Source of the DNA: an uncultured Roseburia sp.
GTDB lineage: Bacteria; Bacillota; Clostridia; Lachnospirales; Lachnospiraceae
Reading direction: 5' to 3'
Assembly (NCBI GenBank): GCA_947573605.1
Contig: CANPGM010000035.1
Span: 1 to 38,933 of the forward strand
DNA: 38,933 nt
Part shown: in pieces, positions 9,499-37,127 of the stretch
Numbering within the stretch: position 1 is the first letter of the stretch
Layout: every line of letters begins with the position of its first letter
Made by a program: the position numbers and the translations under genes
Notes under the pieces: generated by a model
The model's input: only the letters and a program-made list of their open reading frames with translations
What the model was told of the DNA's origin: nothing
Databases searched by the model: none

Positions 9499-9803
9499 GG
9501 ATTCGGGTGTCAAAAGGCAGTCTTTTCGATTTAAACTGGCAAATTGCACAAAATAAATCACGGAGCTGTTTTGTGCAGGGAAATGAGATTCTCTTAACGC
9601 TCTGTTCGTTATCTGCAATTTGGGGACATGGAAGTCCCCAAAAGCCCGCAATGAGCCAGGATGGCGATTGGCGGGCGGTTGCACTGCGGAGAAATCACCC
9701 GGTCAGAGCATTTAGAGAATCCGTTTGCCGGAACATACAGCGAGTGATATTTTGTGCAATTTGCCAGCCAACAGCTTAAAATCGGCCTATTGACATCCGA
9801 ATT
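9499..9803. mobile_element. MITE-like palindromic element with terminal inverted repeats
   Basis: A 305-bp non-coding element. Its ends are imperfect inverted repeats: ATTCGGGTGTCA at 9501-9512 against TGACATCCGAAT at 9791-9802 (11 of 12 match). Further in, a perfect 19-bp arm (9536-9554 against 9749-9767) and a weaker arm around 9587-9605 against 9705-9720 follow. CTGTAA occurs immediately on both sides (9493-9498 and 9804-9809), which looks like a 6-bp target duplication. The centre holds smaller hairpins (GGGGAC/GTCCCC, GCCCGC/GCGGGC). Removing the element would leave the flanking genes 42-43 bases apart, a normal operon spacing. No transposase is inside, so movement would need a helper in trans. 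Confidence 0.75.
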
Positions 9804-13715: not shown

Positions 13716-13937
13716 ATGGATTTAAAAGAAAAAATCAGTAAGGTCGTAGAAGAAGTATCCGGTAATCCGGATCTGAAGGAACAGTTTGAAAAGGAACCCG
13801 TAAAGGTAATAGAGAAATTGATCGGCGTGGATCTGCCTGACGATATGGTTATGAAAATCATTGACGGCGTAAAAGCAAAACTGACTCTGGATAATGCGTC
13901 AAAGGCCGCCGATGCGATAAAGGGGTTATTTCACTAA
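13716..13937 (+). CDS. Small protein with Nif11/NHLP-leader-like layout, function unknown
   Basis: A 73-residue, mostly helical protein. The core (VSGNPDLKEQFEKEPVKVIE, then IGVDLPDDMVMKIID) resembles the leader part of Nif11- and nitrile-hydratase-type (NHLP) precursor peptides: a stretch like 'D-P-x-L-x-x-x-F-x-x-D-P-x-x' followed by 'G-x-x-L-P-D-D'. A Gly-Gly or Gly-Ala cleavage site and a Cys/Ser/Thr-rich core are missing; the C-terminus is AADAIKGLFH. So it may be a stand-alone small protein of the same fold and not a peptide precursor. GGGAGGAG lies ~8 bases before ATG 13716. It sits in a two-gene unit with the next small membrane protein. Confidence 0.6.
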   Translation: MDLKEKISKVVEEVSGNPDLKEQFEKEPVKVIEKLIGVDLPDDMVMKIIDGVKAKLTLDNASKAADAIKGLFH

Positions 13938-13997
13938 CTTCCGGGTATGCCGATGCAGCGAAAAAAAATATTGTCAAAATAGAACAGGGAGGAGCGT

Positions 13998-14189
13998 ATG
14001 AAAACAAGAAATTTGTTTTGGGCGTTTCGTTTAGTCGCGATCGTAATATGTACCATTACTCTTTTCGGTTCGAATTTTTTCAGTATTGCACTGCCGGATT
14101 TTATTACACGAAGCATCGGACTGCTTGATTTGGCTGCATTGCCGATATTGGGATATACAACAGTTAAGAAGCTTGCGGATAAGCAGTAA
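13998..14189 (+). CDS. Small membrane protein, two helices
   Basis: A 63-residue protein with two predicted membrane segments, FRLVAIVICTITLFGSNFF (~10-28) and LLDLAALPILGYTTV (~42-56). It has short basic ends (MKTRN at the start, KKLADKQ at the end). No family recognised. GGGAGGAG lies ahead of ATG 13998 and the gene follows the previous one by 60 bases, so they are probably co-transcribed, ending at the terminator at 14271. Confidence 0.6.
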   Translation: MKTRNLFWAFRLVAIVICTITLFGSNFFSIALPDFITRSIGLLDLAALPILGYTTVKKLADKQ

Positions 14190-14270
14190 TGAATCCAGTT
14201 TATGGAATTGCAGCCCACGGAAAAATGAATAACCGCCGTACATATGGAACGGCGCGCTAAGACAGGGAAT

Positions 14271-14297
14271 CAGGAAAAGGTTTCCTGTTTTTTTTTT
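14271..14297 (+). terminator. Intrinsic terminator before the phage-like island
   Basis: CAGGAAA (14271-14277) pairs with TTTCCTG (14281-14287) over a three-base loop and is followed by ten T (14288-14297). It isolates the upstream small genes from the island's own promoter. Confidence 0.88.
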
Positions 14298-14324
14298 GCG
14301 CAGTTTGAAAGTCTGCATTTATGC

Positions 14325-14353
14325 TTGACATAAGAACATATGTTTGATAGAAT
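14325..14353 (+). promoter_or_regulatory. Promoter of the RNA polymerase/tail island
   Basis: TTGACA (14325-14330, perfect consensus) and TAGAAT (14348-14353, 5 of 6) with 17 bases between. It lies directly after the terminator and 128 bases before the RNA polymerase-like gene. The spacer contains a LexA-type box (separate entry). Confidence 0.82.
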
Positions 14354-14373
14354 CAAATAAGAACATAAGTTCG
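14333..14373. promoter_or_regulatory. Two LexA (DinR-type) SOS boxes
   Basis: Box 1, AGAACATATGTTTG (14333-14346), matches 13 of 14 positions of the Gram-positive LexA consensus CGAACRNRYGTTYG and lies in the promoter spacer. Box 2, AGAACATAAGTTCG (14360-14373), matches 12 of 14 and keeps both GAAC and GTTC half-sites; it lies just downstream of the -10. Their centres are 27 bases apart. Binding here would block the promoter, so DNA damage should induce the island. The match is seen; the regulation is inference from known LexA biology. Confidence 0.75.
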
Positions 14374-14480
14374 AATACCTGTAATCAGAAGATTGTCAGA
14401 GATTCCGGTAAATCAGGAATCTGTTTGAATCGGAATGCAGGAGGAAGGGAATCAATCGGAACAGATTAAAGAAGGATGAA

Positions 14481-17309
14481 ATGGAAGAGAGAAGTACGAT
14501 TAAAATCAAAAGCATACAGGCGGCAAGTCTATACCGGGTAAATAACGGCTACAAATATGTACAAAGGAATGAGGACGGGAGCTGCGAATACAGGGATTCC
14601 TTTCCCGATTTCGGGAATGCCGTAATTCATAACAGCCTGTTTGCAGAATATGTCCGCCGTCACGGCGGAACCGTAAATGAAACGAGCAATAAGAGTCTTG
14701 ACTTTTTAATGATGAAGTTTGACTGGGGAGTGGACGAGGACGCTTCTGACAGGACAGAGAGAAAGCCGGCTGTGACAGCGCAGGAATTAAGGGATTATTA
14801 TTATGAGAATGGCGCAGAGGTTGTCTGGAAGTTTTATGATTCCCAAACCGGAAAAGAGAAAAAAGACAGAGAAAAGAAAATCGTCTATAAAATGCTTTTC
14901 CGAACGCCCGGAAAGGCAAAAGACGGGCAGTGCCTTTTTATCAGAGAAGGTCTTCATAAGAAAATACAGAGCTATCTTACAATGGGGCTATGGGAAAGGA
15001 TGCCTGATGAGAAAGGAGCCAAAATAGTGGAGCTGTCCGCCTATTCGCCGCTCGTTGCCGCAACGGCAATCGATTATATACGGATTCCGATGGAGAATAT
15101 CTTTGTGTTAAAAGACCGGAAAAGCTCCTGTTATAAAAAAGCGGTCGCAGTCAAAACGTGGGACGCTCCCTATATCAGAAAAGAGAGAGATTATCCAGCC
15201 TTTGAAGAATATGTGAACCGATATGGATTCACTTTTTCTAAAAAGACGGCAAAGAAGAATCCCGTTCTGAAATATGTGGAAAAAAATAAAAAGACTTTGG
15301 CTTCATATGGCATAGATGTGAACTTATGCCCTGAAAAAGAGGTTACGTACTATAAAAAAGAATGTTATTGCGACAGGAAAGAGGAAGAAATTGAAATTAC
15401 TAATGTAATGTGGGATGGTATGGGGATTATAGATCATTCTATTTTTCCTGGTCATATGGAGGGCTTTATCTATTGCAGGAGCCATTTTTTTAAGTCATGT
15501 CTGTTCAAAGGCAATATTCAGGATTATTTCATGGATTATTACGGTGAAAATTATAATACGGCATATGAAACAGATATGACCGGGCGAAGAATCAAGATTA
15601 CGGATATCAAAGTAATCATTACGGAAAATTCACTGAAATGGATAAAATTCCTGGAATTTATGAGTAAAAGCGGCACATTGGAGGACGGATTCAAATACTA
15701 TAGCAAGATAATGAAAAGGGACAAGGAAAGGTTTGCCATAGTGAAAACCGCTCATAAAAGCAAATATGACGAATTACAGAGAAGTTCATTCCAGATAAAT
15801 AATACGCTGCTTACAACTGATCCGGATATTTTAAGGGAAATTGCTGCTACAAGTATTGATTACTTTCATAAACTCAAAACAGATGACAAAGCGTTTTTAA
15901 ACTATTTGGATATTACAGGCTCTGCGAAGTTTTGCATTCACAATGTTTTGATTGACCTCTACAAGCGGAATGATAAATTCAGATATACGGAATGGTATAA
16001 AAATAAGAAAAGGGCGGTATTAAATGTCTTAAAGAATCAACGGCTGAAGCTTGGCAAGCTATTTCAGCAGGGGGATAACCTGACGATCTGCGGGAACCCG
16101 GTTGCAATGGTCATGTCGGTTACGGGACAAAGTTATCAGAATGAGAACTGTTTTGCGCAGTTTGACGATAGAATCCAGTGCTGTACTACCAGATTTGCGG
16201 AAGGGGAAAGGCTTGCCGGGTTTCGAAGTCCGCACAACAGTCCGAATAATATCGTTTATTTAGAGAATGTATATCCGGCGGCAGTAAAAAAGTATTTTCC
16301 CGATTTAGGCGATAACGTCATTATTATTAACGGGATTGGAACGGACGTGCAAAGCAGGCTTAACGGACAGGATCTGGACACGGATTTTATTTATGCAACA
16401 AATCAGAAAAATATAGTGGAACTGGCAGGAAAGGCATATAGAGAATATCCGACAATTGTTAATCAGATCACATATGGCACGAATGAATATGACAAAAGTA
16501 TGCGGTCTTATTCTAACATGGATCAGAATATTTCCGCATCGCAGTACAGCATCGGTTCTGCCAGCAATATCGCTCAGCTGGCATTGAGCTATTGGTTTGA
16601 CGGAGGAGGTAAGGACAAGAGACTTGAAGACGTGATTATTATCTGCAGCGTGTTAGCGCAGGCGGCAATTGATTCTTCAAAGCGAAATTTTGAGATAAAT
16701 GTCGGGAGTGAGCTTGCAAGAATCAGCAGGATGCCCTGTATGAAACATCATCCCAGATACCCGCGCTTTTATGCGGATGTACAGAAATACACGAAAAAGA
16801 AAAAAGGCAACATGCGAAAAATTGCGGAGAACGACATAGGATTTCTAAACTGTCCGATGGACCTGCTTTATAACATAATCGAGGATGGAGCGATGGACCT
16901 CAGGAAATATAAAGGTCTGAACACAAAAACGTACCGGGAAGGCGAATATGGCGTAAAAATAATTTTTGAGTATAAGGCGGACCATATAAAAACCGACCGA
17001 AAACAATACCGGAAAGTAATCGATATTATAAAAGAATATGATAAAAGATCCAGAACGCTTGAACGCACAGGAGATTCCTGCAAATTTGAACGATTATGTG
17101 AATTTGAAAACTGTATGGATCGATTAAGGAACATTACAATTCGTAAAAGTACAATGTATACATTGATTGCGTATGCATTTAAACCGGGGAACGAATATTT
17201 AAGGGACAGTCTGCTGACGGTCTTATATGACAAAGATAAAGAGACGTTTCTTGATTGTTTTAAAAAGTCGGAAAAAACTCCACAAAAAGACGCCGCAAAT
17301 ACTGAATGA
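14481..17309 (+). CDS. Predicted single-chain double-psi beta-barrel RNA polymerase (QDE-1/YonO/crAss-like)
   Basis: A 942-residue protein that I read as a one-subunit RNA polymerase. The second barrel is recognisable: GFRSPHNSPNN (~580-590) stands where these enzymes carry the R-x-P 'RNP' segment. About 40 residues later LNGQDLDTDFIYATN carries D631, D633 and D635, the metal-binding D-x-D-x-D triad (DbDGD in QDE-1/RDR and YonO, D-F-D-I-D in crAss-phage polymerase). About 300 residues upstream DGMGIIDHSIF (D312) and Y-C-R-S-H-F-F-K (R333, K338) fit the first barrel with its conserved Arg and Lys. The spacing and order agree with that superfamily. The Gly of DbDGD is Thr634. Whether it copies DNA or RNA is unknown. 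The first gene behind an SOS-type promoter and upstream of tail genes. Confidence 0.75.
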   Translation: MEERSTIKIKSIQAASLYRVNNGYKYVQRNEDGSCEYRDSFPDFGNAVIHNSLFAEYVRRHGGTVNETSNKSLDFLMMKFDWGVDEDASDRTERKPAVTAQELRDYYYENGAEVVWKFYDSQTGKEKKDREKKIVYKMLFRTPGKAKDGQCLFIREGLHKKIQSYLTMGLWERMPDEKGAKIVELSAYSPLVAATAIDYIRIPMENIFVLKDRKSSCYKKAVAVKTWDAPYIRKERDYPAFEEYVNRYGFTFSKKTAKKNPVLKYVEKNKKTLASYGIDVNLCPEKEVTYYKKECYCDRKEEEIEITNVMWDGMGIIDHSIFPGHMEGFIYCRSHFFKSCLFKGNIQDYFMDYYGENYNTAYETDMTGRRIKITDIKVIITENSLKWIKFLEFMSKSGTLEDGFKYYSKIMKRDKERFAIVKTAHKSKYDELQRSSFQINNTLLTTDPDILREIAATSIDYFHKLKTDDKAFLNYLDITGSAKFCIHNVLIDLYKRNDKFRYTEWYKNKKRAVLNVLKNQRLKLGKLFQQGDNLTICGNPVAMVMSVTGQSYQNENCFAQFDDRIQCCTTRFAEGERLAGFRSPHNSPNNIVYLENVYPAAVKKYFPDLGDNVIIINGIGTDVQSRLNGQDLDTDFIYATNQKNIVELAGKAYREYPTIVNQITYGTNEYDKSMRSYSNMDQNISASQYSIGSASNIAQLALSYWFDGGGKDKRLEDVIIICSVLAQAAIDSSKRNFEINVGSELARISRMPCMKHHPRYPRFYADVQKYTKKKKGNMRKIAENDIGFLNCPMDLLYNIIEDGAMDLRKYKGLNTKTYREGEYGVKIIFEYKADHIKTDRKQYRKVIDIIKEYDKRSRTLERTGDSCKFERLCEFENCMDRLRNITIRKSTMYTLIAYAFKPGNEYLRDSLLTVLYDKDKETFLDCFKKSEKTPQKDAANTE

Positions 17310-17321
17310 AGGGGAGTTTTA

Positions 17322-17405
17322 ATGATTGCCTGTGAAAAGGAGGTAAAGCAAGATGTAGGAGATTATGAAAAGAACACCGCCCCGTCTCCATATACGAATC
17401 AATAA
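17322..17405 (+). CDS. Possible 27-residue peptide between polymerase and tape measure genes
   Basis: A short open frame with AGGGGAG (17310-17316) five bases before its ATG, starting 12 bases after the polymerase stop codon. It encodes MIACEKEVKQDVG followed by a polar, Pro-containing tail. It has no recognised family. The spacing suggests translation, but its small size means it could be chance. The remaining ~150 bases to the tape measure gene are AT-rich with no feature seen. Confidence 0.3.
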   Translation: MIACEKEVKQDVGDYEKNTAPSPYTNQ

Positions 17406-17629
17406 CAGTAATTCTTGAGAAAAACAAATCTTACCAATGATCGATAATTCTATAAAATCCCAAAGAAGATGAACATACACACAAACCCCATACTAAGATA
17501 ATAACACAATATGCAAATGATTATTTACAACAGTTACAGTTTGTAAAAAAATAATTGCTTCGGATGAGCGACGGAAAGGCGGAAAATGTGAGCGTATCGG
17601 AGAAAAACAGCAGAAAGGAAACACAAAAT

Positions 17630-19225
17630 ATGACAAACAAAAATAAAATTATTCTTGACCTGATAACGTCGATTCAGGAAACAAAAAGTAAAGAGCGGTT
17701 AAACAACGATATCAAACGTATTCAGAAAAAGCTGAATAAATTGGAACTGGAGGCGGAAGTAAGCCGGGAGTCCATCCGGAAAATGCAAAAGAAACTCAGC
17801 AGAATAAAGATTAAGGCTGAAATTATGCCGGAATCTGTGCAGAATCTTTTTAAACAGCTGGAAACGATTGCAGAAAAACACAGCATTCATATTTCCGCTC
17901 AGGAAACGGTGAACCGCAATGCGGTATCACAGGAGGAAAAAGCGCCTGACTCCATTGCGGCTCTCAAACAGGTGCAGAAGGAACAGGCAGTAACAGAAAA
18001 ATCCGGCAGATCCTTATTTTCTTCTTTGAAAAAAGGGGCTTCGTCTGTTTCTCAACTGATATCGCCGCATTTTCTGTTTATGGAACTGGTTCCGAAAGTA
18101 AAGGAGGCGTTTACGGAACTGAAAAAAGTCGATGGCATTATGACAGAAATCAGTAAAGTAAGCAGAAGGACATCTGAAGAATTGAAAACGCTTGGCGAAG
18201 AAGCTTATGGGACTGCAAGCAGATACGGAAGAACGGTATCCGATTATCTGACAGGCGTTCAGGAGATGTCACGCGCCGGATTTCAGGGGGACAAGGCAGA
18301 AGAAATGGCGGAATTATCACTGCTTGTACAAACGGCGGCCGGTATGAGCACAGAGCTGTCAAACGAATATTTAATCGCAGCTAATACAGCCTATAAGCTA
18401 AATGGCGAGACGGATAAGCTGAATGAAATTCTTGACGGGCAATATTACATTAGTAATAATAATGCCGTTTCGATGGAACATCTGGCAAGTGCAACAAAAG
18501 CGGCCGCATCACAGGCCGCAGGCGCGGGAGTTGCCGTTGATGAAATGAGCGCCGCAGTCGGTACGATGGCAGCGGTGACACAAGACGGCGGGGAAACCGC
18601 CGGGAGGGCGTTTAAAGCGCTTCTTATGAACATCAGGCAGGTGCCGGGAGAATTGGAGGATGGGGACGTTATAAATGAAGAATCCCTGGTAAAATATGAG
18701 GAGGCATGCAAAAATCTTGGCGTTTCACTCAAAACAGTCAGGGCCGGCGTTGTAAGTCTGCGCGATCCAATGGAAGTTTTAAAGGAACTTTCAGAAGCAT
18801 ATTCTTCTCTGGATCTGAATGACGCGCGGCGGACAAACCTGATTACTGCGGTCGGCGGAAAGCAAAAAGGAAATCAGGTAAATGCGCTCCTTGAAAACTG
18901 GTTGATATATGAAAAGCTGCTGAATGATTATTCAAAAGGATCCGGTTCCGCAATGGAAGATGCTAAAAAATCCGCTGACAACTGGGAGGGTTCTTTAAAC
19001 AGGCTGCAGAATACGTGGGTAAATACAATAGAAAATATCGCAAATTCAGACGTGGTAGTTACCGTTATGAATGGTACAAATTCTTTACTTGAGGTATTAA
19101 ATAAATTAACGGCTACACTTGGAAGCATAGGCACGATTGGTTTAGGTGCATTTGCTTTCTTAAACAAAGGTAGATCAAATACGATTTTGCCCTTCATGGA
19201 AGTAATTCCATGTTGCAAGTTTTAA
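17630..19225 (+). CDS. Phage tail tape measure protein, 5' exon (TP901 family)
   Basis: N-terminal part of a tape measure protein. Residues 1-~95 are a charged coiled coil (NDIKRIQKKLNKLELEAEV). From ~160 comes the TP901-type core: LFMELVPKVKEAFTELKKVD, MTEISKVSRRTSEELKTLGE, YLTGVQEMSRAGFQG, and DEMSAAVGTMAAVTQDGGE. The reading frame meets a stop at 19223-19225, but the protein pattern breaks after GTIGLGAFAFLNKG (~19170), where a group I intron core begins; the last ~15-20 codons are probably intron. I chose ATG 17630 (AAAGGA 11 bases upstream; begins MTNKNKIILDLITS, as in related proteins). TTG 17555 and ATG 17564 lack a ribosome site. The rest of the protein is encoded from about 20549. 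Confidence 0.85.
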   Translation: MTNKNKIILDLITSIQETKSKERLNNDIKRIQKKLNKLELEAEVSRESIRKMQKKLSRIKIKAEIMPESVQNLFKQLETIAEKHSIHISAQETVNRNAVSQEEKAPDSIAALKQVQKEQAVTEKSGRSLFSSLKKGASSVSQLISPHFLFMELVPKVKEAFTELKKVDGIMTEISKVSRRTSEELKTLGEEAYGTASRYGRTVSDYLTGVQEMSRAGFQGDKAEEMAELSLLVQTAAGMSTELSNEYLIAANTAYKLNGETDKLNEILDGQYYISNNNAVSMEHLASATKAAASQAAGAGVAVDEMSAAVGTMAAVTQDGGETAGRAFKALLMNIRQVPGELEDGDVINEESLVKYEEACKNLGVSLKTVRAGVVSLRDPMEVLKELSEAYSSLDLNDARRTNLITAVGGKQKGNQVNALLENWLIYEKLLNDYSKGSGSAMEDAKKSADNWEGSLNRLQNTWVNTIENIANSDVVVTVMNGTNSLLEVLNKLTATLGSIGTIGLGAFAFLNKGRSNTILPFMEVIPCCKF

Positions 19226-19600
19226 AACGCGTCAAAGTATGAACGGTGGAAGCCAAGTAATACACCGGGGAACTCTGACCCATAATGCTTATATGGGACA
19301 GTATGGCTAACCAATAACGTCATGCTGTAATTCTGATTCTTACAGGAAATAACCAGATAATACAGAGCCGTCCGAAACCAAGCTGAGAGAATGTAAGGCT
19401 CTTGGGACAGGACTGGAATCCTGTCCTCCTACGTATAACGGGGATGAAGGTCAAGAGACTGTAAGGCGCAGGGTCTTGTATATACAAGATTCAGAAATCC
19501 AGTCCAGTTTCTGCTATATAAATATATAGTGGTCTATGCTCGCCGGTAATCAGACCGGCAGGGAGGGAACTCTAAGAAGCAGCATAGAGTGAGATTGAAA
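19190..19600 (+). ncRNA. Group I intron catalytic core
   Basis: The stretch GATGAAGGTCAAGAGACTG (19443-19461) closely follows the Azoarcus group I intron core GAUGAAGGUGUAGAGACUA. GACTG (19457-19461) can pair perfectly with CAGTC (19500-19504) as P7, and TCCAGTCCAG matches the AUAGUCCAG region. GGCGC (19465-19469), just after P7, pairs with GCGTC (19229-19233) as P3, enclosing P4-P6 as expected. TCTTGTATATACAAGA fits P8. Other hairpins: CATGGAA/TTCCATG at 19196-19213 (P2-like), GACAGGA/TCCTGTC, and a P9-like domain at 19533-19588 (CTATGCT with AGCATAG enclosing GCCGGT/ACCGGC). P1 and the splice sites were not resolved. Confidence 0.78.
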
Positions 19601-19637
19601 TAATATGAAATTCAGGTAAATATGTATACAGTGAAAA

Positions 19638-19997
19638 TCAGAACATACTCTTAACAAACACTTTGTAATATTCATCATTGATAAGAATAAGGGACTTTTC
19701 GCCATCCTTCCATTCGATAGCAATAAGGTATTCTTTCTTGTTCTTACCACCGATACCGGCAACAGCGCCAATTCCGCCGAAAAGTGCAACACCTAAAGCA
19801 CCTTTCCAAAAAGAGTACTGGTCTTTGTTGGATTCGTTCATTACGGTGTAGGAAGAAATAGTAAATTTAGACAGAGGATAATTACTACCATTAATCTCTG
19901 CGTTGGATATTTTTAAAATAGAGGTATCAATTATTTTCTTGTTTTTATATTTACCTTCTAAAATGGAGTTAATTTGTGACATAATGATACCCTCCAA
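19638..19997 (-). CDS. Intron cargo protein A: Gly-rich hydrophobic hairpin protein, function unknown
   Basis: A 119-residue protein encoded against the tape measure direction. The middle carries a Gly-rich hydrophobic stretch, GALGVALFGGIGAVAGIGG, which could be a membrane hairpin or glycine zipper. The C-terminal domain (KEYLIAIEWKDGEKSLILIN, then YYKVFVKSMF) looks like a small beta domain. The N-terminus (residues 1-50) is a polar beta-rich stretch. It is ~80% identical by eye to the neighbouring paralog over the C-terminal 60 residues but diverged before that. GGAGGG stands upstream of its ATG (19997 on the minus strand). A promoter candidate TTGAAT/TACGAT lies about 20015-20045. No endonuclease motif (LAGLIDADG, GIY-YIG, HNH) is present. 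Confidence 0.75.
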   Translation of the reverse strand: MEGIIMSQINSILEGKYKNKKIIDTSILKISNAEINGSNYPLSKFTISSYTVMNESNKDQYSFWKGALGVALFGGIGAVAGIGGKNKKEYLIAIEWKDGEKSLILINDEYYKVFVKSMF

Positions 19998-20119
19998 TAA
20001 AATTTACTATTAATCGTATCATATAATATAGTTGAAATTCAATTTCACAAATAGAAAATCAAAAGTGAATTGAATTAAAAAGACATGTAAATTTAATATA
20101 CATGCCTTAAGACAATTTT

Positions 20120-20473
20120 TTAAAACATACTTTTCACAAACACTTTATAATAATCATCATCGAGGAATATGAGTGACTTCTCCCCATTCTTCCACTCGAT
20201 TGATATTAAATATTCTTTGGAGGATTTGTTTTTACCACCTATTCCTGCGACGGCTCCTAATCCACCGAATAAAGCCACTCCCAAGGCTGCTTTCCAAAAG
20301 GAATATTCGGATGAGTTTTTGGCGCTTTCATCTAAGATAGTGTATGAGGAAATATGGTTTTTATCTAACCCACCGTCAAGTTCCAACCAACTATCATTTT
20401 TCCATTTCATTAATTTAACTGGTTGATTTTCATATTTTCCTTTTAATACATAATTTATAGTTGATTGTGACAT
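20120..20473 (-). CDS. Intron cargo protein B, paralog of A, function unknown
   Basis: A 117-residue paralog of the neighbouring minus-strand protein, with the same layout: a variable beta-rich N-terminus (KGKYENQPVKLMKWKNDSWL), SFWKAALGVALFGGLGAVAG in the middle, and the C-terminal SIEWKNGEKSLIFLDD and YYKVFVKSMF. The conserved Gly-rich core and C-terminus against a variable N-terminus suggest selection on different binding partners, which is inference. It has its own strong promoter at 20508-20536 and GGAGG ahead of the ATG at 20473. Transcription opposes the tape measure gene, so expression should be possible when the phage genes are silent. Confidence 0.75.
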   Translation of the reverse strand: MSQSTINYVLKGKYENQPVKLMKWKNDSWLELDGGLDKNHISSYTILDESAKNSSEYSFWKAALGVALFGGLGAVAGIGGKNKSSKEYLISIEWKNGEKSLIFLDDDYYKVFVKSMF

Positions 20474-20507
20474 ATGTATATATTCCTCCTAAGGGCTCAT
20501 TTAATTC

Positions 20508-20536
20508 ATTATAACAAGTATTAAAAAAATATTCAA
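20508..20536 (-). promoter_or_regulatory. Promoter of intron cargo gene B
   Basis: Read on the minus strand, TTGAAT (20536-20531) and a perfect TATAAT (20513-20508) are separated by 17 AT-rich bases. No LexA box is seen here, unlike the island's plus-strand promoter. Confidence 0.75.
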
Positions 20537-20548
20537 TCTCATAAATAG

Positions 20549-23500
20549 AAAATCAAAGATTTTAAAACCAATATAGAAATTATAGATGAGCAAATACAAA
20601 AATTAGAAAAAGTTTCAAACTTAGATATTTCTGCTTTATCTTCTAATCAAATAATTAATTTAGGCAAGAAATTAAAACCAGAAGAACTCCAATCCTACAT
20701 CGACAGAATCAATGAAATCAAAAATGCACAAAATACAACAGGTTCCGCATTATTTGACTCTCTACAAATTAAAGAATATGCTGCTACTCTATCAGGCTTA
20801 GAAGCCAAACAAGCAGCTCTGCTACTCTCCACACAGGGTTTAACCAATGCACAGATTGCAGAAACATTAGCCAGCAATGGAGCTGCCGCCGCTGAAAATT
20901 ATCAGGCAATGACAGAAGCGGGACTTTTAGCACGCAAACAGGAACTTACTGTTGCAGAGGTACAGAAAAACTTACAGACCATATTAGGGACGGAAGCGGA
21001 TACATCTGCGGCCATGTCTGTATTAGGGCTGTCAGCCGCTATGGAAGGGCAGGAATATCAGACCGTACAACTGACATCAAAGAAATTAAAAGAACTGGTA
21101 ACTTCACATGCACTGACAGAAGCACAGGCACAGGAACTTGCAATGCGTACAGGCGTTATGCTTTCCATGAGGGCACAGACTGCAGGCATACTGCCGAAAT
21201 GGATTGCCACATTAAAAGCGGCTACCCTTGCTACATGGGGGCAGGTAAAGGCTACTGCCGTATGGCTGGCTACAACCCCGGCCGGATGGATTACGGCTGC
21301 CGTTGCCGCTATTGGAGCTGCCGTTGCTATATCTGCATCACACAACAAAAAACTGGAAGAACAAAGAGAAGCTATAAAGGAAAATGCCGAAGCAGCAAAA
21401 TCCGCAATAGACGGAATCAAGTCTGATTTTGACAGCCTCAATTCGGCAACTGATGATGTAAAGGAAAGATTTGCGGAACTGGCACAGGGCGTAGGCGATT
21501 TAGGTAAAGTAAATCAGTCCCGCGGCGAACTAAGCACAGAAGATTATAAAGAGTTTCTGGAGTTAAGCAACCAGATCGCAGACCTTTTCCCCCAATTAAC
21601 AAAAGGCTATGATGACAATGGGAATGCGATACTTGGTCTGTCAGGCAACGTTGATACGATTGTAGGTTCTTTAGAAAATATGGTTTCCGTTCAACAGAGA
21701 CTGGCCAGACAGGAGATTATGGATAAAATGCCGGATGTATGGGCAGGGTATACTGCTGATCTGGAAGAGTATGAAACTTCTTTGGAGGAAGCGGAAAAGA
21801 AGTCCAAAGGCGCAGTACAGGCCTTATCTGAGGTTACAAATGGCATTTTTAAAATGAAAGGATATGATGAAGACAGCGGATTTATTAACGGCGAATTAAA
21901 CGATGCGATTAAAACCGCCCTTGAAAATGTCGGCATTGGCAGTTTGATAGACGACTGGGGATGGACATATCATTATGACAGAAGCGGGAAAGACGGGTAT
22001 TCGACTACCTGGGATTTTTCTTCCCTTACAGAAGCACAGTTTGAACAGTTAAAAAATGAACTTGGCTCGCTTAGTTTTGAATATGAAAATGCCGTACAGA
22101 TAACAAAAGGAAAAATGGAAGCCGCAAATTCGGATATGTCAAATTATATAAATACATGGCTTTCCGGTGAATGGAATTACAGCAGAATGGATTCCGGGAT
22201 GCAGGATGTTGTCAAAGACGTCCTGCTGAACAGCGACTGGATCAGCCAGATGCCCGTTGATTCGGGCGACTGGGACGAAGTAAGCAACTGGCTGCAGCAG
22301 AATTTCCTGTCTGCCGTGAATAAGATTGATGACATGGAAATCCAGTCCGCCTTAGCAGACGTTCTTAACGGGGATTCCACTACCGGGCTGATTCAGGGAA
22401 CGATAGACCGTCTTCTTAATACGGAAGGTTTTGACGAGGACAATCCTTTAATCATTTATTTGCAGACAATGTTTGATAATGGGAATGATTTGTCAGAACA
22501 GGTAAAAGAAATCCTTCAGGACGAATTTGACGATCGTGTTGACGAACTTACCCTTGATGACTTACAGATTGCGGCAGAACAGATTAAAGTAGACGATGGC
22601 ACTCTCCTGTCCTGGGATGAACTGATTGCCAGAATCAATGAATATAAAGAAACTGTCAAAAGCCCTGTTTCCCTGCCGGACATTTTCTCCTTCAAAAATG
22701 CGGACGATACCCTTACCAGTCTTGGATCGATGTCAGAATCAATTGATACGATACAAAATGCATATAAAACATTATATGAAGCGATAGACGAATACAATGA
22801 GGAAGGCGCATTTTCTGTCGATACCCTTCAGTCCGTGATTGCTTTAGGGGACGACTGGCTGGATTATCTGGCAGACGAAGACGGGAATCTCAAACTCAAT
22901 AAAGAATCCCTGGAACAGCTTACACAGGCGCGCCTTAATGATATGCGTGTTCAGGCAATCAATAATGTCATCGACAATGTATCAAAGATTGAGTCCGATG
23001 CAGACGCTAACGACTATCTAAAGTCAACAAACTATGCGCTTGCGGAATCTTACGAAGAGGTTGCGCAGAAAGCCCTGGCAAGTGCAAGGGCAAAGATGCA
23101 GGATGCGGTTGCTGCCGGAACTTTGTCAAAAGCGAATATGGATGCTGCCATGAATAAGGCAACCGCCGATATTGCCAAAATCAATAAACTGTTTGCCAAT
23201 ACAAGCATAAGTACAGGCACAATAACAGAAAATTTCGAAAAGTCTTCCGCAAAGTCATCTTCTTCCAAATCGGAATATGAAGAACTCTTCGATTTCTTTG
23301 AACGCCGTGTGGAAGTGCTTGACGACGCACTCTCCCTTTTGAAAGCAAAAATTGAAAACGTTACAGGCGCATTCGGAAAGAACAACCTGATAGACGCGGA
23401 AATCGGGATTACCGAAGAGAAATTTAACAATTATACGGACGCGCTCTCCATGTACGCGCAGAAAGCGGAAGAAGCACTGTCCGTCATTCCGTCCGAGCTT

Positions 23501-25729
23501 GCGGAGAAGGTAAAAAACGGCGCGGTATCCCTGACCGACTTTATCGGGGACGGGAATAAAAGTGTTGTCGAAGCCATCAAAGAATATGAGGACTGGTCTG
23601 GAAAAGTAAACGAATGCAGACAGGAACTTGCAGAGCTGAAAGAAACACTCCGTCAGTTGGAATTGGAGAAATTTAACAACATTATGGAGGATTTCACGAA
23701 ACAGTTTGATTTACGCGAGGACGGGAAGGATTTAATCTCAAAGAAGATTGCTTTACTGGAAGAAGCCGGACAACTGATCGGAGAATCCTTCTTTACGGCA
23801 CAGATTGAACAGTCCAAAAAGCAGTTGGAATTACTGGAAGCAGAAAAAGCGAAGCTTGTAGAACAGATGAATACCGCATTGTCTTCCGGAAGGGTACAAA
23901 AAGGCACTGACGAATGGCTTGAGATGGTAAACGCCCTTTCTGATGTAGAGGGAAACATCTTAGACTGCAAGAAAGCGATGGAAGAATTTGACAACTCCAT
24001 CCTTGCCTTGCACACAGAAATATTCAACCGGATACAGGAACAGTTCGGGAACCTTGATTCCGAATTATCAAACCTGATCGGACTGCTTGTAGATATGGAC
24101 GTGTCAGATGAATCCGGGGACTGGACAAAGGAAGGCCTCGCACAGTTAGGGCTTCTCGCACAGCAGTACGAGCTTGCACAGTATCAGGTACAGCAGTATA
24201 ACGATGAAATAAACAAATTAAACAGCGATTACCTTGCCGGAAAATATTCCGCTACGGAATATGCGGACAAACTTGCTGAACTGACTTCCGCACAGTGGGA
24301 CGCGGTAAATGCTGCCGAATCCGCAAAAGACGCGATTATGAAACTGAATGAAGCGCGCGTCGATAAGGAAATCGAAGGCATTGAAAAAGAAATCGACGCT
24401 TATAAGGAACTCGTTGACGCACAGATTGACGCGCTAAAGGCCGCAAAGGATTTGCATGACTATGAAGAAACCATTGCGGAAAAGACAAAAAGCATTACTG
24501 ATCTGGAACGCCAGATTGCAGCCATGCAGAACGACAATACAGCCGCTACCGTCGCAAGACGGAAGAAGCTGGAGGAAGAGCTTGCACAGGCGAAAAAAGA
24601 TTTGGAGGAAACCGAATACGACCATTCCGTAGAAATGCAGGAAGACGCGTTAAACAAAGAATATGAGCGGTTCGAGGAAGAAAAACAGGCGGAAATCGAA
24701 GCTTTACGGGAAAGTTTAAATGAAATACAGCAGATGATAGCAGAATCTCTTGAAGCGGTCAGACAGAACTCCGACGTAATCGGACAGGAAATCGCATACA
24801 TTGCCCAGTTGCACGGCATAACCGTATCGGACGCGCTGATATCGGCATGGAAGAACGGGGAACATGCAGTCGCCGGATATGGCGAAGTATTATCTGCCGG
24901 AACATCCGCCTTTATCGGGAACATTATCGGCGTGGAAAAGGAAATATGGAACTTACAGGCACAGGCCAACAGCACCGCCGAAACGCTTGCATGGATGTTC
25001 TCTACCCGCGCGGATGGTCTGGTAGAGGAATTAAACCGTTCTTATTCCAGTGAAGAAAATTTAAACGCAATGACAAACGCGTTACAGTCAACGCTTATAA
25101 ATACACTGGAACGGGGATACGACATCAGCGGTATCACTTCCGCACTCTCTGCAATCGCATCCGGTGCCGACAGTGTAGCGGGGGCGGCAAACAATGCGGC
25201 AAACGCGCTTGCAAGAATGGGAGCGGCAGGAAACACCGGAAGAAAGAAACTTACGTTTGTCCAGATTGATTCGTCTACAGGGGAGAGCATCTATCGCAAC
25301 AATGATAACGGTATGGAAGAGACGTCGGATTATTGGAAAACATACGGATGGCAGTACGGCATATCGGAAGAAGAACGGAACAGTCTGTTTCATGCAAAAA
25401 GCGGTAAGTCTGTCGGCGAAGGAATGCATTTGTTGACAAAAGAACAAATAGAACGCCTCTTACCTGTGATAGACAAAAGCGCCTGGGATTTGACAGCGCA
25501 GAAGATACCTTCGATCTGTGCAATAAATCCGCCGGCGGCTTCGGAAATTCAGGGAAAAGGCAGTCAGGTGAATGTACATTATGACAGTATGATAACAATT
25601 AACGGCGATGTAAATGATACAAAACATTTTCTAAAAGATATGGAAAACGTATCGAAAAGAATCTCGCAGAATGAGGTCGGAAAATTTGCAAAAGAACTGA
25701 ATGATATTGCTCGATTTGGCAGATATTGA
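20549..25729 (+). CDS. Phage tail tape measure protein, 3' exon
   Basis: Remaining ~1,726 codons of the tape measure protein, open from just after a TAG at 20546. There is no ATG, GTG or TTG in frame until ATG 20909, yet the frame upstream of 20909 is clearly protein-like (SALSSNQIINLGKKLKPEEL, LEAKQAALLLSTQGLTNAQI), so translation most likely enters from the 5' exon after splicing. Domains in order: a helical region, a hydrophobic segment (ATTPAGWITAAVAAIGAAVA, near codon 250), a long set of coiled coils (QIAAMQNDNTAATVARRKKL region), and a C-terminal part ending AKELNDIARFGRY. The joined protein would be about 2,240 residues, implying a tail some 300 nm long by the usual ~0.15 nm per residue rule. 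Confidence 0.82.
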   Translation, partial: KIKDFKTNIEIIDEQIQKLEKVSNLDISALSSNQIINLGKKLKPEELQSYIDRINEIKNAQNTTGSALFDSLQIKEYAATLSGLEAKQAALLLSTQGLTNAQIAETLASNGAAAAENYQAMTEAGLLARKQELTVAEVQKNLQTILGTEADTSAAMSVLGLSAAMEGQEYQTVQLTSKKLKELVTSHALTEAQAQELAMRTGVMLSMRAQTAGILPKWIATLKAATLATWGQVKATAVWLATTPAGWITAAVAAIGAAVAISASHNKKLEEQREAIKENAEAAKSAIDGIKSDFDSLNSATDDVKERFAELAQGVGDLGKVNQSRGELSTEDYKEFLELSNQIADLFPQLTKGYDDNGNAILGLSGNVDTIVGSLENMVSVQQRLARQEIMDKMPDVWAGYTADLEEYETSLEEAEKKSKGAVQALSEVTNGIFKMKGYDEDSGFINGELNDAIKTALENVGIGSLIDDWGWTYHYDRSGKDGYSTTWDFSSLTEAQFEQLKNELGSLSFEYENAVQITKGKMEAANSDMSNYINTWLSGEWNYSRMDSGMQDVVKDVLLNSDWISQMPVDSGDWDEVSNWLQQNFLSAVNKIDDMEIQSALADVLNGDSTTGLIQGTIDRLLNTEGFDEDNPLIIYLQTMFDNGNDLSEQVKEILQDEFDDRVDELTLDDLQIAAEQIKVDDGTLLSWDELIARINEYKETVKSPVSLPDIFSFKNADDTLTSLGSMSESIDTIQNAYKTLYEAIDEYNEEGAFSVDTLQSVIALGDDWLDYLADEDGNLKLNKESLEQLTQARLNDMRVQAINNVIDNVSKIESDADANDYLKSTNYALAESYEEVAQKALASARAKMQDAVAAGTLSKANMDAAMNKATADIAKINKLFANTSISTGTITENFEKSSAKSSSSKSEYEELFDFFERRVEVLDDALSLLKAKIENVTGAFGKNNLIDAEIGITEEKFNNYTDALSMYAQKAEEALSVIPSELAEKVKNGAVSLTDFIGDGNKSVVEAIKEYEDWSGKVNECRQELAELKETLRQLELEKFNNIMEDFTKQFDLREDGKDLISKKIALLEEAGQLIGESFFTAQIEQSKKQLELLEAEKAKLVEQMNTALSSGRVQKGTDEWLEMVNALSDVEGNILDCKKAMEEFDNSILALHTEIFNRIQEQFGNLDSELSNLIGLLVDMDVSDESGDWTKEGLAQLGLLAQQYELAQYQVQQYNDEINKLNSDYLAGKYSATEYADKLAELTSAQWDAVNAAESAKDAIMKLNEARVDKEIEGIEKEIDAYKELVDAQIDALKAAKDLHDYEETIAEKTKSITDLERQIAAMQNDNTAATVARRKKLEEELAQAKKDLEETEYDHSVEMQEDALNKEYERFEEEKQAEIEALRESLNEIQQMIAESLEAVRQNSDVIGQEIAYIAQLHGITVSDALISAWKNGEHAVAGYGEVLSAGTSAFIGNIIGVEKEIWNLQAQANSTAETLAWMFSTRADGLVEELNRSYSSEENLNAMTNALQSTLINTLERGYDISGITSALSAIASGADSVAGAANNAANALARMGAAGNTGRKKLTFVQIDSSTGESIYRNNDNGMEETSDYWKTYGWQYGISEEERNSLFHAKSGKSVGEGMHLLTKEQIERLLPVIDKSAWDLTAQKIPSICAINPPAASEIQGKGSQVNVHYDSMITINGDVNDTKHFLKDMENVSKRISQNEVGKFAKELNDIARFGRY

Positions 25730-25792
25730 TTAACGGCCGTTAAAATACCACATAAAAATACCATAAATAAATATAAGAAAGGATTTATCTCT

Positions 25793-28669
25793 ATGAAATT
25801 AAAATTAAAACATGACTTTTTTGACCGTCCGGTCGTACCGTCGTATCTCTTATGTAAATCGAATAAAGAGCGGATCGGAGTGATTCAATGTACCGCAAAA
25901 ACAATTGCTGTGAAATTTAATTCGATGGACGAGATAAATTTTACAACATACCTTTACATAAATGGCGAAAAAAACAGATACTACAACGATATTGACGTTC
26001 TCAAATACATCCTTCTGCCGGATATCGGATTTTTCGCAATTGATTCCGTTCAGGTTCAGTCAGAGGGGACGGAATTGGAACACAAAGAGGTAACGGCTAA
26101 AAGCTATGAATGTCTGCTCGGACAGAAATACCTTGATGTTTTTTCTGTAAATATGGGGACGACTGGAAGCATTGACGGCGTGCAGCTTTATAATATGGCG
26201 GAACCTGCGAAAAGCCTTCTGCACATTGCCCTGGAAAAATGCCCAGACTGGAGAATCGGACATATAGATACTGCACTTAGAACCATGCAGAGAAGCTTTG
26301 AAATAACGAAGCAGGATGTATATACGTTCCTGACAACAGATGTATCGGAAGCTTTTGAATGTATCTTCTTATTTGACACGTTAAACAATACAATCAATGT
26401 TTATCAGGAGAAAAATGTCGGACATGACACAGACATCTATGTATCCTATCGGAATCTGTTAAAAAGTACAAATATTACATGCAGCATTTCTGATATTAAA
26501 ACCTGCCTTACGCTGACTGGCGAAAACGATTTAAATATCCGGGAAGTCAACATGGGATATGACAAAATCTATAACCTTTCTTACTTCCACTCTACCCGGT
26601 TTATGAGCCAAAGTCTTTTTGACGCATATAACGACTGGCTGAAAAAACGGGAAGGACTGACAGAAGCGTATACGAACCTGCTGTCACAGTATCAGAATTA
26701 CAATATACGGATTTATCAGCTTGAACACTTAAAAATGCCCGATGATCCGGAAAGTACGGTCTGGTCGGAATACGGTCTGGAACCCTTAAAAGAAAAACAG
26801 AAAACATATGAACAGACATTGGATGTCATGATGAAATCAGGATGGGGCGATCCGGAAAGTGAAAATTATGAAGAGTATTTAAATATATATCATATTATAG
26901 AAGAAATCAGGGAACAGATCAATAGAACCAACAGAGCGATTCAATCTATTGAAAGGGAACAGGCGAAAATCAGCTATCAGATGACAGAAATAGTAAAGCT
27001 CGTTTCCATGAATGCAAATTTCACCCCGGAACAATTAAAAGAATTAACTACTTTTATCCGGGAAGATGAATTAAATACCAGCAACTTTGTTGTCACAGAC
27101 AATATGACGGAAGAAGAACGCTTTTCTATGCTTCATGAATTTCTTACTTATGGGGAAAACGAACTTGCCAAAGCCGCCGTTCCGCAGCTGTCGTTTGACG
27201 CAGATATGGCAAATCTGTTTACCATTCCGGAATTTCAAAGATTTTGCGGTGAATTTGACGTCGGAAATTATATATACATTTCCATGCGTGACGATTACAA
27301 AATAAAAGCGCGGCTTCTGTCTATGACAATTGATTTTTATGACGTTTCCAATTTCAGCGTTACGTTTGGAAACCTTTTCAAGCATGGAAATATGGCAAGG
27401 GATTTTACAAATGCATTTAAACAGGCACAGTCCGCCGCGACATCCGTATCCTTCCAGGCATCAAACTGGAACCGGTCGAGTCAGGATACTTTCACAATTG
27501 GGAAAATACTTGATGAAGGTTTGCTTAGCGCGGGAAAATATTTGAAATCCGGGGATGATTCCGAAATGATCATTGACAGCCGCGGCATTTTTATTAATAC
27601 GACATCCGGAGACTATGCCGGAAAAGACGCTGTTTTTATTGGCGGAGGACGCATTTTGTTTACGGACGACAACTGGCAGACAGTTTCTATGAGCGTAGGA
27701 CGGGCGGATGTAACGATAAAAGGCGCAAAAGAATCCCGGTTCGGTACATTTGCCGATTTTGTAATTGCCGGTTATATCGGAGGTTCCACGCTCGAAGGAG
27801 ACGAAATTTACGGCGGAAAGATTCAGTCCAAAAACTACGATGTAGGAAAATCAGGAACGTTGATTGACCTGGAAGAAGGAACCTTTGAGTTAAACGCAGG
27901 AGGCGAACAGAAATTAACACTTGACGAAGAGGGCGTATTGACCGTCAAAGGAACCGTAAAAGCGGAAGAGGGATATATTGGTGGCGCTACCGGATTTACG
28001 TTAGAAGAAAATAAACTTTATAACGGAAAAACTTCTATTTCGGATACGGCAGACGGCATCTATCTTGGTACAGACGGTATTGCTTTAGGCTCGGATAATG
28101 TATTTAAAGTCACTCCTCAAGGCGTATTGACTGCAAAATACGGAGAAATTGCCGGTGCCGTTCTAAATAGTAATTCAATCCGCGCTTCAAATAATATGTG
28201 GTGGATTCACGCGGACGGAAGCTCAAGTTTTGAACATGTTTATATCAATGGCGTACAAAACGGAAGCCAGTTTGGCAGCGTCATATATAATCATAACATT
28301 ACAAGCGGAATATTTGGCGGCGTTTCATCTTTTGGCAGTACAGCTGCCGCCCCTTTTAAAGGAACCTGCGTGGAGCATATCGAAAGTCTTGCCGTAGGAA
28401 GAATAACGGCTGATTATATCAACGCAAAGCTGCTGGAGTGTCAGAACCTGTTTGTAAACGGGAAAATAAAAGCGGGTCTGGTTGACGCCGACAACATTAC
28501 CACAGGTACTTTAAGTGTAGACAGGATTGATTTGGACGGACTTATCGGGAAATATGTGTACGCCCAGGGACTTGGCGCTTTGGACGGTTTTTCATTTCAG
28601 GGAACGCAGGTAAAATGGGTAACAGAGACAATTAACGGAAAACAATACCGGATTTTGGCCGCTGTGTAG
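25793..28669 (+). CDS. Phage tail/tail-spike protein (Tal-like, receptor-binding)
   Basis: A 958-residue tail tip protein. The N-terminal ~300 residues (domain pattern LKYILLPDIGFFAIDSVQVQ, HKEVTAKSYECLLGQKYLDV) match siphovirus prophage tail proteins that sit at the tail tip and often carry an endopeptidase. A long coiled coil follows (~300-420). From ~580 the chain turns into repetitive Gly-rich beta structure (FADFVIAGYIGGSTLEGDEI, KAEEGYIGGATGFTLEENKL), typical of tail spike or fibre shafts. The ATG at 25793 follows AAGAAAGGA and comes 63 bases after the tape measure stop. The usual distal tail (Dit) gene that lies between tape measure and Tal is absent. It is the last tail gene of the island. 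Confidence 0.82.
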   Translation: MKLKLKHDFFDRPVVPSYLLCKSNKERIGVIQCTAKTIAVKFNSMDEINFTTYLYINGEKNRYYNDIDVLKYILLPDIGFFAIDSVQVQSEGTELEHKEVTAKSYECLLGQKYLDVFSVNMGTTGSIDGVQLYNMAEPAKSLLHIALEKCPDWRIGHIDTALRTMQRSFEITKQDVYTFLTTDVSEAFECIFLFDTLNNTINVYQEKNVGHDTDIYVSYRNLLKSTNITCSISDIKTCLTLTGENDLNIREVNMGYDKIYNLSYFHSTRFMSQSLFDAYNDWLKKREGLTEAYTNLLSQYQNYNIRIYQLEHLKMPDDPESTVWSEYGLEPLKEKQKTYEQTLDVMMKSGWGDPESENYEEYLNIYHIIEEIREQINRTNRAIQSIEREQAKISYQMTEIVKLVSMNANFTPEQLKELTTFIREDELNTSNFVVTDNMTEEERFSMLHEFLTYGENELAKAAVPQLSFDADMANLFTIPEFQRFCGEFDVGNYIYISMRDDYKIKARLLSMTIDFYDVSNFSVTFGNLFKHGNMARDFTNAFKQAQSAATSVSFQASNWNRSSQDTFTIGKILDEGLLSAGKYLKSGDDSEMIIDSRGIFINTTSGDYAGKDAVFIGGGRILFTDDNWQTVSMSVGRADVTIKGAKESRFGTFADFVIAGYIGGSTLEGDEIYGGKIQSKNYDVGKSGTLIDLEEGTFELNAGGEQKLTLDEEGVLTVKGTVKAEEGYIGGATGFTLEENKLYNGKTSISDTADGIYLGTDGIALGSDNVFKVTPQGVLTAKYGEIAGAVLNSNSIRASNNMWWIHADGSSSFEHVYINGVQNGSQFGSVIYNHNITSGIFGGVSSFGSTAAAPFKGTCVEHIESLAVGRITADYINAKLLECQNLFVNGKIKAGLVDADNITTGTLSVDRIDLDGLIGKYVYAQGLGALDGFSFQGTQVKWVTETINGKQYRILAAV

Positions 28670-28931
28670 ATTGTAACTGTAATTGGGGAGGGTAAAATAA
28701 AAAGCGAGGGAAATGAGAAAACAAAAATGATTGAATATAGGCAGTGAATATGATAAAATTGGAAAAGTATTTAATCGTAAGTCTCTGTTATATTGTCATG
28801 TTTTAGAGCATACTCGGATAGAAGAAATGAAGAAGAAATCGAGTAAAATTGACGCAGCAATCATGTTAGGAAGATACGAATAGATGGATTAGGGCATATA
28901 AAGCCCGGTAATTACGGAGGTTTTAACAAGG
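28670..28931. other. Island-to-pyrE junction with a short gene remnant
   Basis: 262 bases with no clear terminator for the island. A 50-codon open frame (TTG 28731 to TAG 28881-28883) reads like a protein end (KVFNRKSLLYCHVLEHTRIE and DAAIMLGRYE), possibly what is left of a gene disrupted at the island's right edge; no family recognised. I see no obvious att-type direct repeat matching the left edge near 14300. Confidence 0.35.
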
Positions 28932-29606
28932 ATGGAAAATTATAAAAAAGAGTTTATCGAATTTATGGTAGAGAGCGATGTGCTGAAATTCGGCGAGTTT
29001 ACATTAAAAAGCGGTCGGAAGTCACCGTTTTTTATGAATGCCGGAAACTACGTAACAGGCAGCCAGCTTATGAGGCTGGGCGAGTTTTATGCGAGAGCCA
29101 TTCACGAGCGTTTCGGGGAGGACTTTGATATTTTGTTCGGACCGGCATACAAAGGGATTCCGTTAGCCGTTGCAGCGTCTATTGCATTTGCCAGGTTATA
29201 CGGGAAAGAAATCCGTTATTGCTCGAACCGAAAGGAAGTAAAGGATCACGGGGATGCAGGGATTTTGCTGGGGAGCAGGATAAAGGACGGCGATCGTATC
29301 GTTATCATAGAAGACGTTACGACTTCGGGCAAATCGATAGAAGAGACGTTTCCGATCTTAAAAGCGCAGGGAGACGTACGGATTCTGGGCTTGATGGTTT
29401 CTTTAAACCGGATGGAAAAGGGGCTTGACGGGAAAGTCAGCGCGCTTGCGGAAATAAAAGAAAAGTACGGAATTGAGGCAGGAGCCATCGTAACGATGGA
29501 AGAGGTTGTAGAACATTTATATAACCGCCCGTGTCAGGGAAAAGTCGTAATAGACGAGGAAATAAAAGGTGCGTTAGATCGGTATTACGAGGCGTATGGC
29601 TGTTGA
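28932..29606 (+). CDS. pyrE: Orotate phosphoribosyltransferase
   Basis: Converts orotate and PRPP to orotidine 5'-phosphate, the fifth step of de novo pyrimidine synthesis, in the cytoplasm. 224 residues, the size of the longer (clostridial/E. coli-like) PyrE form. Family marks: FTLKSGRKSPFF near the N-terminus, GPAYKGIPLAVA (orotate/PRPP loop), KEVKDHGDAG (flexible catalytic loop) and the PRPP-binding IVIIEDVTTSGKS. GGAGG is found 12 bases ahead of ATG 28932. It overlaps the VanZ gene by 11 bases, so it heads a short operon. The other pyr genes are not in the window. Confidence 0.96.
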   Translation: MENYKKEFIEFMVESDVLKFGEFTLKSGRKSPFFMNAGNYVTGSQLMRLGEFYARAIHERFGEDFDILFGPAYKGIPLAVAASIAFARLYGKEIRYCSNRKEVKDHGDAGILLGSRIKDGDRIVIIEDVTTSGKSIEETFPILKAQGDVRILGLMVSLNRMEKGLDGKVSALAEIKEKYGIEAGAIVTMEEVVEHLYNRPCQGKVVIDEEIKGALDRYYEAYGC

Positions 29607-36294: not shown

Positions 36295-36339
36295 GGCCCG
36301 AAACAGTATGTTTAGAATAAGAAAGGAACGGATAAAATT

Positions 36340-36840: not shown

Positions 36841-36870
36841 AGATGCGTCGGGAAAACGGGGTATGGAAAG

Positions 36871-37083: not shown

Positions 37084-37098
37084 CGGAAATTTCAAAAG

Positions 37099-37127
37099 TT
37101 GACAGGATTTGAAAGTTATGACATAAT
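37099..37127 (+). promoter_or_regulatory. Promoter of the MATE transporter gene
   Basis: TTGACA (37099-37104, perfect) and CATAAT (37122-37127, 5 of 6) separated by 17 bases, just after the previous gene. The transcript would start near 37134 and run ~130 bases before the MATE start codon. Confidence 0.75.

Follow-up and report, generated by a model that had tools for sequence, protein, structure and literature searches.

We analysed a window of 38,933 nucleotides, the whole of contig C35 (CANPGM010000035.1) from genome G000 (3.08 Mb) of an uncultured Roseburia sp., in which host genes run up to about position 14190 and resume with pyrE at 28932. The initial annotation had described the island between them as holding only three large plus-strand genes between a terminator and pyrE, and the list of open reading frames (ORFs) bears this out: between a terminator-like hairpin at 14259-14291 and pyrE lie genes for an RNA polymerase, a tape measure protein (split in two) and a tail-tip protein, all on the plus strand. 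The plus-strand ORFs of at least 100 amino acids (aa) in 14300-28700 are 14481-17309 (942 aa), 17555-19225 (556 aa), 20909-25729 (1606 aa) and 25793-28669 (958 aa). Our reading, held with moderate confidence, is that the island represents a reduced member, fixed in the chromosome, of a family of satellite-like integrative, plasmid-like elements found mostly in Lachnospiraceae. Its features are the following.

14259..14291, plus strand: terminator-like hairpin with a T run, at the left edge of the island (consensus scan)
14325..14353, plus strand: sigma-70-like promoter 5' of the polymerase gene, TTGACA-17-TAGAAT with TG, 11 of 12 positions (consensus match only)
14481..17309, plus strand: single-chain two-barrel RNA polymerase of the YonO/QDE-1 kind, 942 aa, motif NGQDLDTD
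17316..17406, plus strand: what may be a decayed remnant of the RNA hairpin found downstream of the polymerase gene in relatives (15.1 bits, E 0.029)
17555..19225, plus strand: tape measure, N-terminal piece, with its final residues and stop codon inside the insert (phrog_4211, 2.2e-55; PF10145, 3.7e-23; TIGR01760, 1.4e-22)
19190..20548, no strand given: insert in the tape measure gene, 1.36 kb, boundaries approximate
19638..19997, minus strand: cargo protein of 119 aa, phrog_20920 (function unknown; 6.8e-20)
20120..20473, minus strand: second cargo copy, 117 aa, phrog_20920 (8.4e-15)
20549..25729, plus strand: tape measure, C-terminal piece; listed ORF from 20909, open frame from 20549 (phrog_4211, 1.1e-15)
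25793..28669, plus strand: tail-tip or tail endopeptidase-spike protein, 958 aa, YomG-like (PF06605, 1.5e-11; phrog_6211, 3.2e-60; tblastn to SPbeta-type phages at YomG)
28719..28774, plus strand: host stretch conserved 5' of pyrE (80-82% identity to the pyrE upstream region in loci L102 and L103)

Because the last stretch is conserved before pyrE in L102 and L103, the island is taken to end earlier than 28719. As had been proposed, no head, packaging, lysis or integration gene was matched when six window proteins were scanned with Pfam, PHROGs and NCBIfam; a sub-threshold match of the polymerase to the Pfam terminase small subunit (E 0.08) was taken as chance. Neither the ORF list nor these three collections revealed integrase or replication genes in the window copy. 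No tail tube or lysis gene was matched in the window, so that the island does not qualify as an F-type tailocin, and no terminase, portal or capsid gene was matched between polymerase and tape measure in the window or its relatives, so that it does not qualify as a complete SPbeta-like prophage. A complete prophage at a contig edge is ruled out by the host genes on both sides. We found no convincing att repeats for the window copy, the longest words common to 13901-14500 and 28601-28960 being 9 bases. In one of the 29 relatives compared, genome G045, only about 350 bases separate the end of the homologue of the 13716-13937 gene from pyrE, versus 15 kb in the window, an arrangement that fits an unoccupied integration site. 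Elsewhere in the window, a TwoAYGGAY RNA (RF01731) is present at 9571-9736, upstream of a radical SAM gene.

The RNA polymerase and the interrupted tape measure gene

The polymerase was predicted by AlphaFold with a pLDDT of 87.5, and all 20 PDB matches of the model at E<=0.001 were two-barrel polymerases of the QDE-1/RDR2 kind, which places the window protein in that fold. Its profile matches YonO of SPbeta-type phages; the link was made by profile comparison, since tblastn of the polymerase against phages gave nine records, none of SPbeta type. The DxDxD metal motif is present (NGQDLDTD), its three Asp residues being invariant in all 41 aligned rows and aligned with DNDGD of YonO, and the G of DFDGD is replaced by T or S in the 41 rows. 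At 75 of 76 otherwise invariant positions the window polymerase is unchanged, departing at one. Judged from the model and the alignment, the product is a genuine single-chain two-barrel RNA polymerase with predicted RNA synthesis, and the reading frame shows no sign of decay.

A protein search returned 1204 polymerase homologues, with a best identity of 74% among the 120 matches listed. Matches were obtained in 4 of 98 genomes (2 of 60 of the genus, G000 and G015, and 2 of 38 others of the order) and in 19 of 392 genomes of the order, among which the close kind occurs only in G000 (1546 bits; next 544). A scan of genome contigs gave 24 polymerase loci (L019-L042), mostly from Lachnospiraceae or other Clostridia by title, with one labelled Tenericutes. 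Viral contigs contributed five loci, three of the same kind (53-56% identity) and two of another kind (29%); an exact-peptide search of viral contigs with the polymerase alone gave no match. A plasmid origin was rejected, as tblastn of the polymerase gave no match in 72,556 plasmid records at 1e-5. Complete phages, too, encode related polymerases: PMBT24 and the 176-kb record MT835469, the latter with a terminase homologue nearby. In the FastTree tree, which is unrooted and also includes the phi3Ts terminase on a long branch, the phages, G015 and a second polymerase of G000 on contig C45 fall outside the group around the window. In the faecal phage contig MT837385 (L008:4279-5017), the polymerase gene is interrupted right at the catalytic motif, and the ORF in the gap appears HNH-endonuclease-like by eye.

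The second and third ORFs of the island form one tape measure gene, matching phrog_4211 at positions 557-942 and 955-1699. The N-terminal piece falls in the TP901/SPbeta type of tape measure family by both TIGR01760 (80.2 bits, cut-off 28.8) and PF10145 (82.9 bits, cut-off 33.2). Exon 1 extends to about 19190, and the open frame resumes at 20549; the insert consists of about 430 bases without an ORF match followed by a duplicated cargo unit, the two minus-strand phrog_20920 ORFs, and its 461-base 5' part matched itself alone in 60 genomes. A P7-like motif in the insert was recognised by eye only, and no Rfam intron family matched at E<=10 in 19000-20920, so that by Rfam the insert does not qualify as a group I intron. 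Two other tape measures are interrupted. That of G015 (L016:3985-5866) carries, at the corresponding place, a different insert with a phrog_2598 protein as cargo; that of G102 (L058:5000-7000, minus strand) is interrupted elsewhere, with a 371-aa probable membrane protein as cargo and a P7-like group I intron motif seen by eye, unconfirmed by Rfam. An intron reading was not retained, with no Rfam intron match for any of the three inserts, and a self-splicing intron is a candidate identity for the insert that interrupts the window gene. The initial view that all ORFs are long and intact apart from an intron therefore holds for the polymerase and tail-tip genes, but the tape measure stands in two pieces and its supposed intron has no Rfam match.

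Relatives of the island and a conserved RNA hairpin

We examined 26 loci (the window, L019-L040 and L042-L044; L041 and L045 end inside the polymerase gene). In all 24 loci with enough sequence, the window and 23 of 23 relatives, the polymerase gene is followed on the same strand by a gene of the tape measure cluster; the contigs of L023 and L038 end before the tape measure position. The cluster was built by single linkage, and the window pieces match most members by direct BLAST. The gap between the two genes ranges from 70 to 9202 bases, often with small genes in it. A drum RNA (RF02958) was also observed inside an element, between polymerase and tape measure (L037:10378-10487). The polymerase-tape measure pair is thus not a lone island, and the tail tip accompanies it only sometimes.

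In 6 of the 11 neighbourhoods laid out (G099, G102, G103, G104, G106 and G112), an integrase of cluster c1 follows the tape measure on the same strand, whereas none was found in the window copy; the integrases of G106 and G104 are tyrosine recombinases by PDB match (1.5e-29 and 6.6e-15). Three relatives look complete, at 28-38 kb. In G104 (Lacrimispora celerecrescens), direct repeats of 26 bp are separated by 38.4 kb, with the right-hand copy located at the 3' end of a tRNA-Arg gene. In G106 (Clostridium sp. HBUAS56010), the integrase lies at 31229-32440 and pyrE at 32531; this element occupies the site used in the window and includes a tail-tip gene from the same cluster as the window's. In G106 and G112, a word that recurs close to the integrase end is compatible with arm sites. 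Upstream genes vary by member and include TubZ in G099 (1.1e-13 to a solved TubZ), a ClpX-like ATPase in G106 (2e-137), and ParB-like, primase, helicase, restriction, anti-restriction and nuclease genes; defence-like genes (GmrSD_N, Uma2, MazF-like, restriction alleviation) are also found in the elements. The G106 protein before the tape measure matches phrog_7299 (virion structural, 1.7e-11) and, weakly, phrog_5 (neck/tail-completion, 0.016).

Five head and packaging profiles gave no match inside any element. Elsewhere in the same genomes or records, matches were obtained with terminase phrog_2 (10 of 15), portal PF04860 (8 of 15), capsid PF05065 (5 of 13), portal PF05133 (5 of 13) and an SPbeta/PMBT24 terminase alignment (3 of 20, two of them strong). 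G000 had no match for any of the five, and in G106 a portal and a capsid gene lie on the same contig, about 200 kb from the element. By these profiles, which could miss divergent proteins, the elements have no complete virion gene set of their own, as expected of satellites.

All three window genes have homologues in SPbeta-type phages. The order in phi3Ts is YonO, HU, terminase, further virion genes, tape measure and YomG, and the elements look like this layout minus its middle block. Other clusters join a related polymerase to tail genes. On contig C45 of G000 (L011:981-17086), the second polymerase (918 aa, 40% identical) has an integrase-like gene upstream and, downstream, a possible tube protein, a protein of 1118 aa placed like a tape measure, and tail genes, with no head match; G015 has a polymerase, a possible tube protein, a tape measure, tail tip or fibre genes and an endolysin; and G436 has a related polymerase and tail gene cluster, by map only. 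The possible tube proteins are conserved but weakly labelled (C45, phrog_7455, E 0.011; G015, phrog_2729, filed under head and packaging, 1.2e-18).

Enrichment of short k-mers after the polymerase gene led to a hairpin with a conserved loop (consensus near GAACGUAAGYYNAGUAG), found downstream of the polymerase gene in 22 of the 26 loci (e.g. L031:10679-10759); it follows closely in all of these but L019, in which other DNA intervenes. Among 21 sequences, 93.9% of cells are paired versus 73.4% after shuffling, a value reached by none of 500 shuffles, and the arms covary, with two-sided changes in 10 of 11 pairs. Slides of 1-3 columns give 40-60% pairing, a control that leans towards the structure because it was derived from the same sequences. 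The many G-U pairs favour an RNA rather than a DNA element. Relatives score 50-81 bits with the resulting model; L019 is the sole scoring locus outside the training set and equals L020 there (2.2e-13). The model found no hairpin in L024, L028 or L032, and in the window it reached 15.1 bits (E 0.029 in 1201 bases, filters off, core unaligned); words common to the relatives' post-polymerase stretch were not found there either. The window hairpin thus appears lost or decayed, at most a remnant.

No Rfam family reached threshold at the hairpin in the six loci scanned, nor in L031 with E up to 5. The model had no match in the stretches of PMBT24, MT835469 and phi3Ts searched, or in type B loci. An 18-letter hairpin pattern occurred in 10 IMG/VR contigs; it was taken as chance, since the model gave no score, and the query proteins no match, in any of them. 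Past the hairpin, a stretch conserved in part of the loci (L031:10750-10960, L020:12915-13150; AUAUCAUACUAU ... UUGUGGAAAA) resembles, by eye, a second structured RNA.

Readings of the island

Complete-looking elements bear a tyrosine integrase, and members variously carry TubZ, ParB-like, primase, helicase or ClpX-like genes. These are followed by a YonO-type polymerase, a structured RNA and a giant tape measure, with a neck/tail-completion-like gene before the tape measure in some members and a tail tip in some. We suggest a satellite way of life. Upon infection by a helper, or upon induction, the polymerase would transcribe the downstream tail operon, as YonO does the SPbeta late genes. The element's tape measure would replace that of the helper and set tail length or prevent the helper from assembling tails, and the helper's heads and tail tubes would package and carry the element, with chimeric tails like those of PLE (phage-inducible chromosomal island-like element) satellites. 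The initial annotation had offered a satellite, a domesticated delivery module or a helper-dependent element, and this is supported in part. Observed are the gene content and order, the fold of the polymerase, the lack of matches to five head and packaging profiles, the att-type repeats of one member and the covariation of the RNA; helper dependence, packaging and the targets of the polymerase are inferred. Lacking integrase and replication genes and retaining at most a remnant of the RNA, the window copy probably cannot move on its own. More tentatively, and with less confidence than we give to the reading of the island, these elements may form a Lachnospiraceae satellite class with its own YonO-type polymerase, an RNA signal for polymerase or tail transcript, and its own tape measure, taking over helper tail assembly and late transcription; the polymerase may ride in the particle.

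Several points weigh against a satellite family. The head negative covers part of the element proteins (25 of the 35 matching families are listed), divergent head proteins could escape it, and PHROGs assigns phrog_7299, the family matched by one element protein, to head and packaging. Of 19 type A genomes or records, only two (G106 and G107) clearly have a terminase of the SPbeta/PMBT24 type expected of a helper, G105 being marginal (5.3e-4). A tail-tube gene was not recognised in the elements, which would leave the helper to supply much of the tail. The element ends in G106 and G112 (28.0 and 37.4 kb) are a guess from a repeated word. With its tape measure interrupted and its hairpin lost or decayed, the window copy may be inert. 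Neither particles nor transfer nor a helper were seen for any of the elements.

An alternative that we consider unlikely is a plain decayed prophage, in which an SPbeta/PMBT24-like phage lost all but three long genes and the relatives are independent remnants. The SPbeta-type homologues of the three genes agree with it, as do the interrupted tape measure, the missing integrase and replication genes and the hairpin remnant of the window copy. But several genera show the same arrangement together with an integrase, in one case accompanied by att-type repeats at a tRNA gene, the polymerase is preserved at all but one of its invariant positions, and independent decay would not leave a tape-measure-cluster gene downstream in 24 of 24 loci. 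Very unlikely, in our view, is a tailocin-like killing module, whose polymerase would drive a headless tail released to kill relatives: C45 and G015, with their possible tube, tape measure, tail tip or fibre genes and, in G015, an endolysin, are closer than the window to an F-type tailocin, and G000 and G015 score zero for all five profiles, but the tube label is weak, window-type elements carry an integrase while no tube or lysis gene was recognised in them, and an integrase-like gene is present on C45 as well. Equally improbable is a defence or decoy, in which the tape measure, driven by the polymerase upon infection, poisons tail assembly of incoming phages with no spread of its own; the defence-like genes and the published interference of a PLE11 satellite protein with tail assembly (PMC12987554) would suit it, but integrase and partition-type genes in relatives point to mobility, and no observation indicates protection.

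Comparison with known systems

Satellites of the P4, phage-inducible chromosomal island (PICI) and capsid-forming PICI (cf-PICI) types carry integrase and replication genes without a full virion gene set, and redirect or make capsids. The elements described here have no capsid gene, but tail genes and a polymerase. The crAss-phages, put forward at first as the precedent for a delivery module, were not retained as the closest model: the window polymerase matches the virion RNA polymerase of crAss-like phi14:2 (6vr4) more weakly than it does QDE-1/RDR2 and the Thermus phage polymerases, and the phi14:2 enzyme is much larger (2166 residues in the structure) and virion-packaged. In Thermus phage P23-45 the polymerase is fused to the tape measure (PMC10770324), a precedent for a physical link between them, whereas the two are separate genes here.

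The SPbeta/phi3T-type phages, with YonO, the CwlP tape measure and YomG, share a homologous polymerase, tape measure and tail tip with the island, but are complete, at about 125-134 kb, and the HU, terminase, head and further virion genes that phi3Ts has between YonO and tape measure are missing from the island. YonO transcribes a late operon starting upstream of yonK, where an unannotated non-coding RNA has been mentioned (PMC5467207). The position of our hairpin recalls this start site, but the model gave nothing convincing near it (best 11.6 bits in phi3Ts 33000-37200, filters off). Through the hairpin, one can study directly how such polymerases locate or mark their operons.

YonO-like polymerases have been noted in many Firmicutes chromosomes, with a guessed role in host stress response (PMC5467207), and relatives in jumbo phages and mobile elements (PMC7824862). 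In our data, a large group of them belongs to integrative elements in which they are coupled to tape measures and no head was recognised; a description of such elements was not found in the open-licence PMC literature searched. Tape-measure-bearing satellites as such are not new, given the putative tmp genes reported in cf-PICIs (PMC12987554). The closest parallel is with the PLE satellites of Vibrio phage ICP1, which are likewise integrated, have no complete virion, and encode a tape measure protein of their own that yields chimeric tails (PMC12987554). They differ in their hosts and in that PLE transfer has been demonstrated, whereas for the present elements it is a proposal; the accessible part of PMC12987554 does not mention an own RNA polymerase. 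If the elements are satellites, joining their own RNA polymerase to a tail ruler would be a new strategy, beside the recently shown chimeric tails of PLE.

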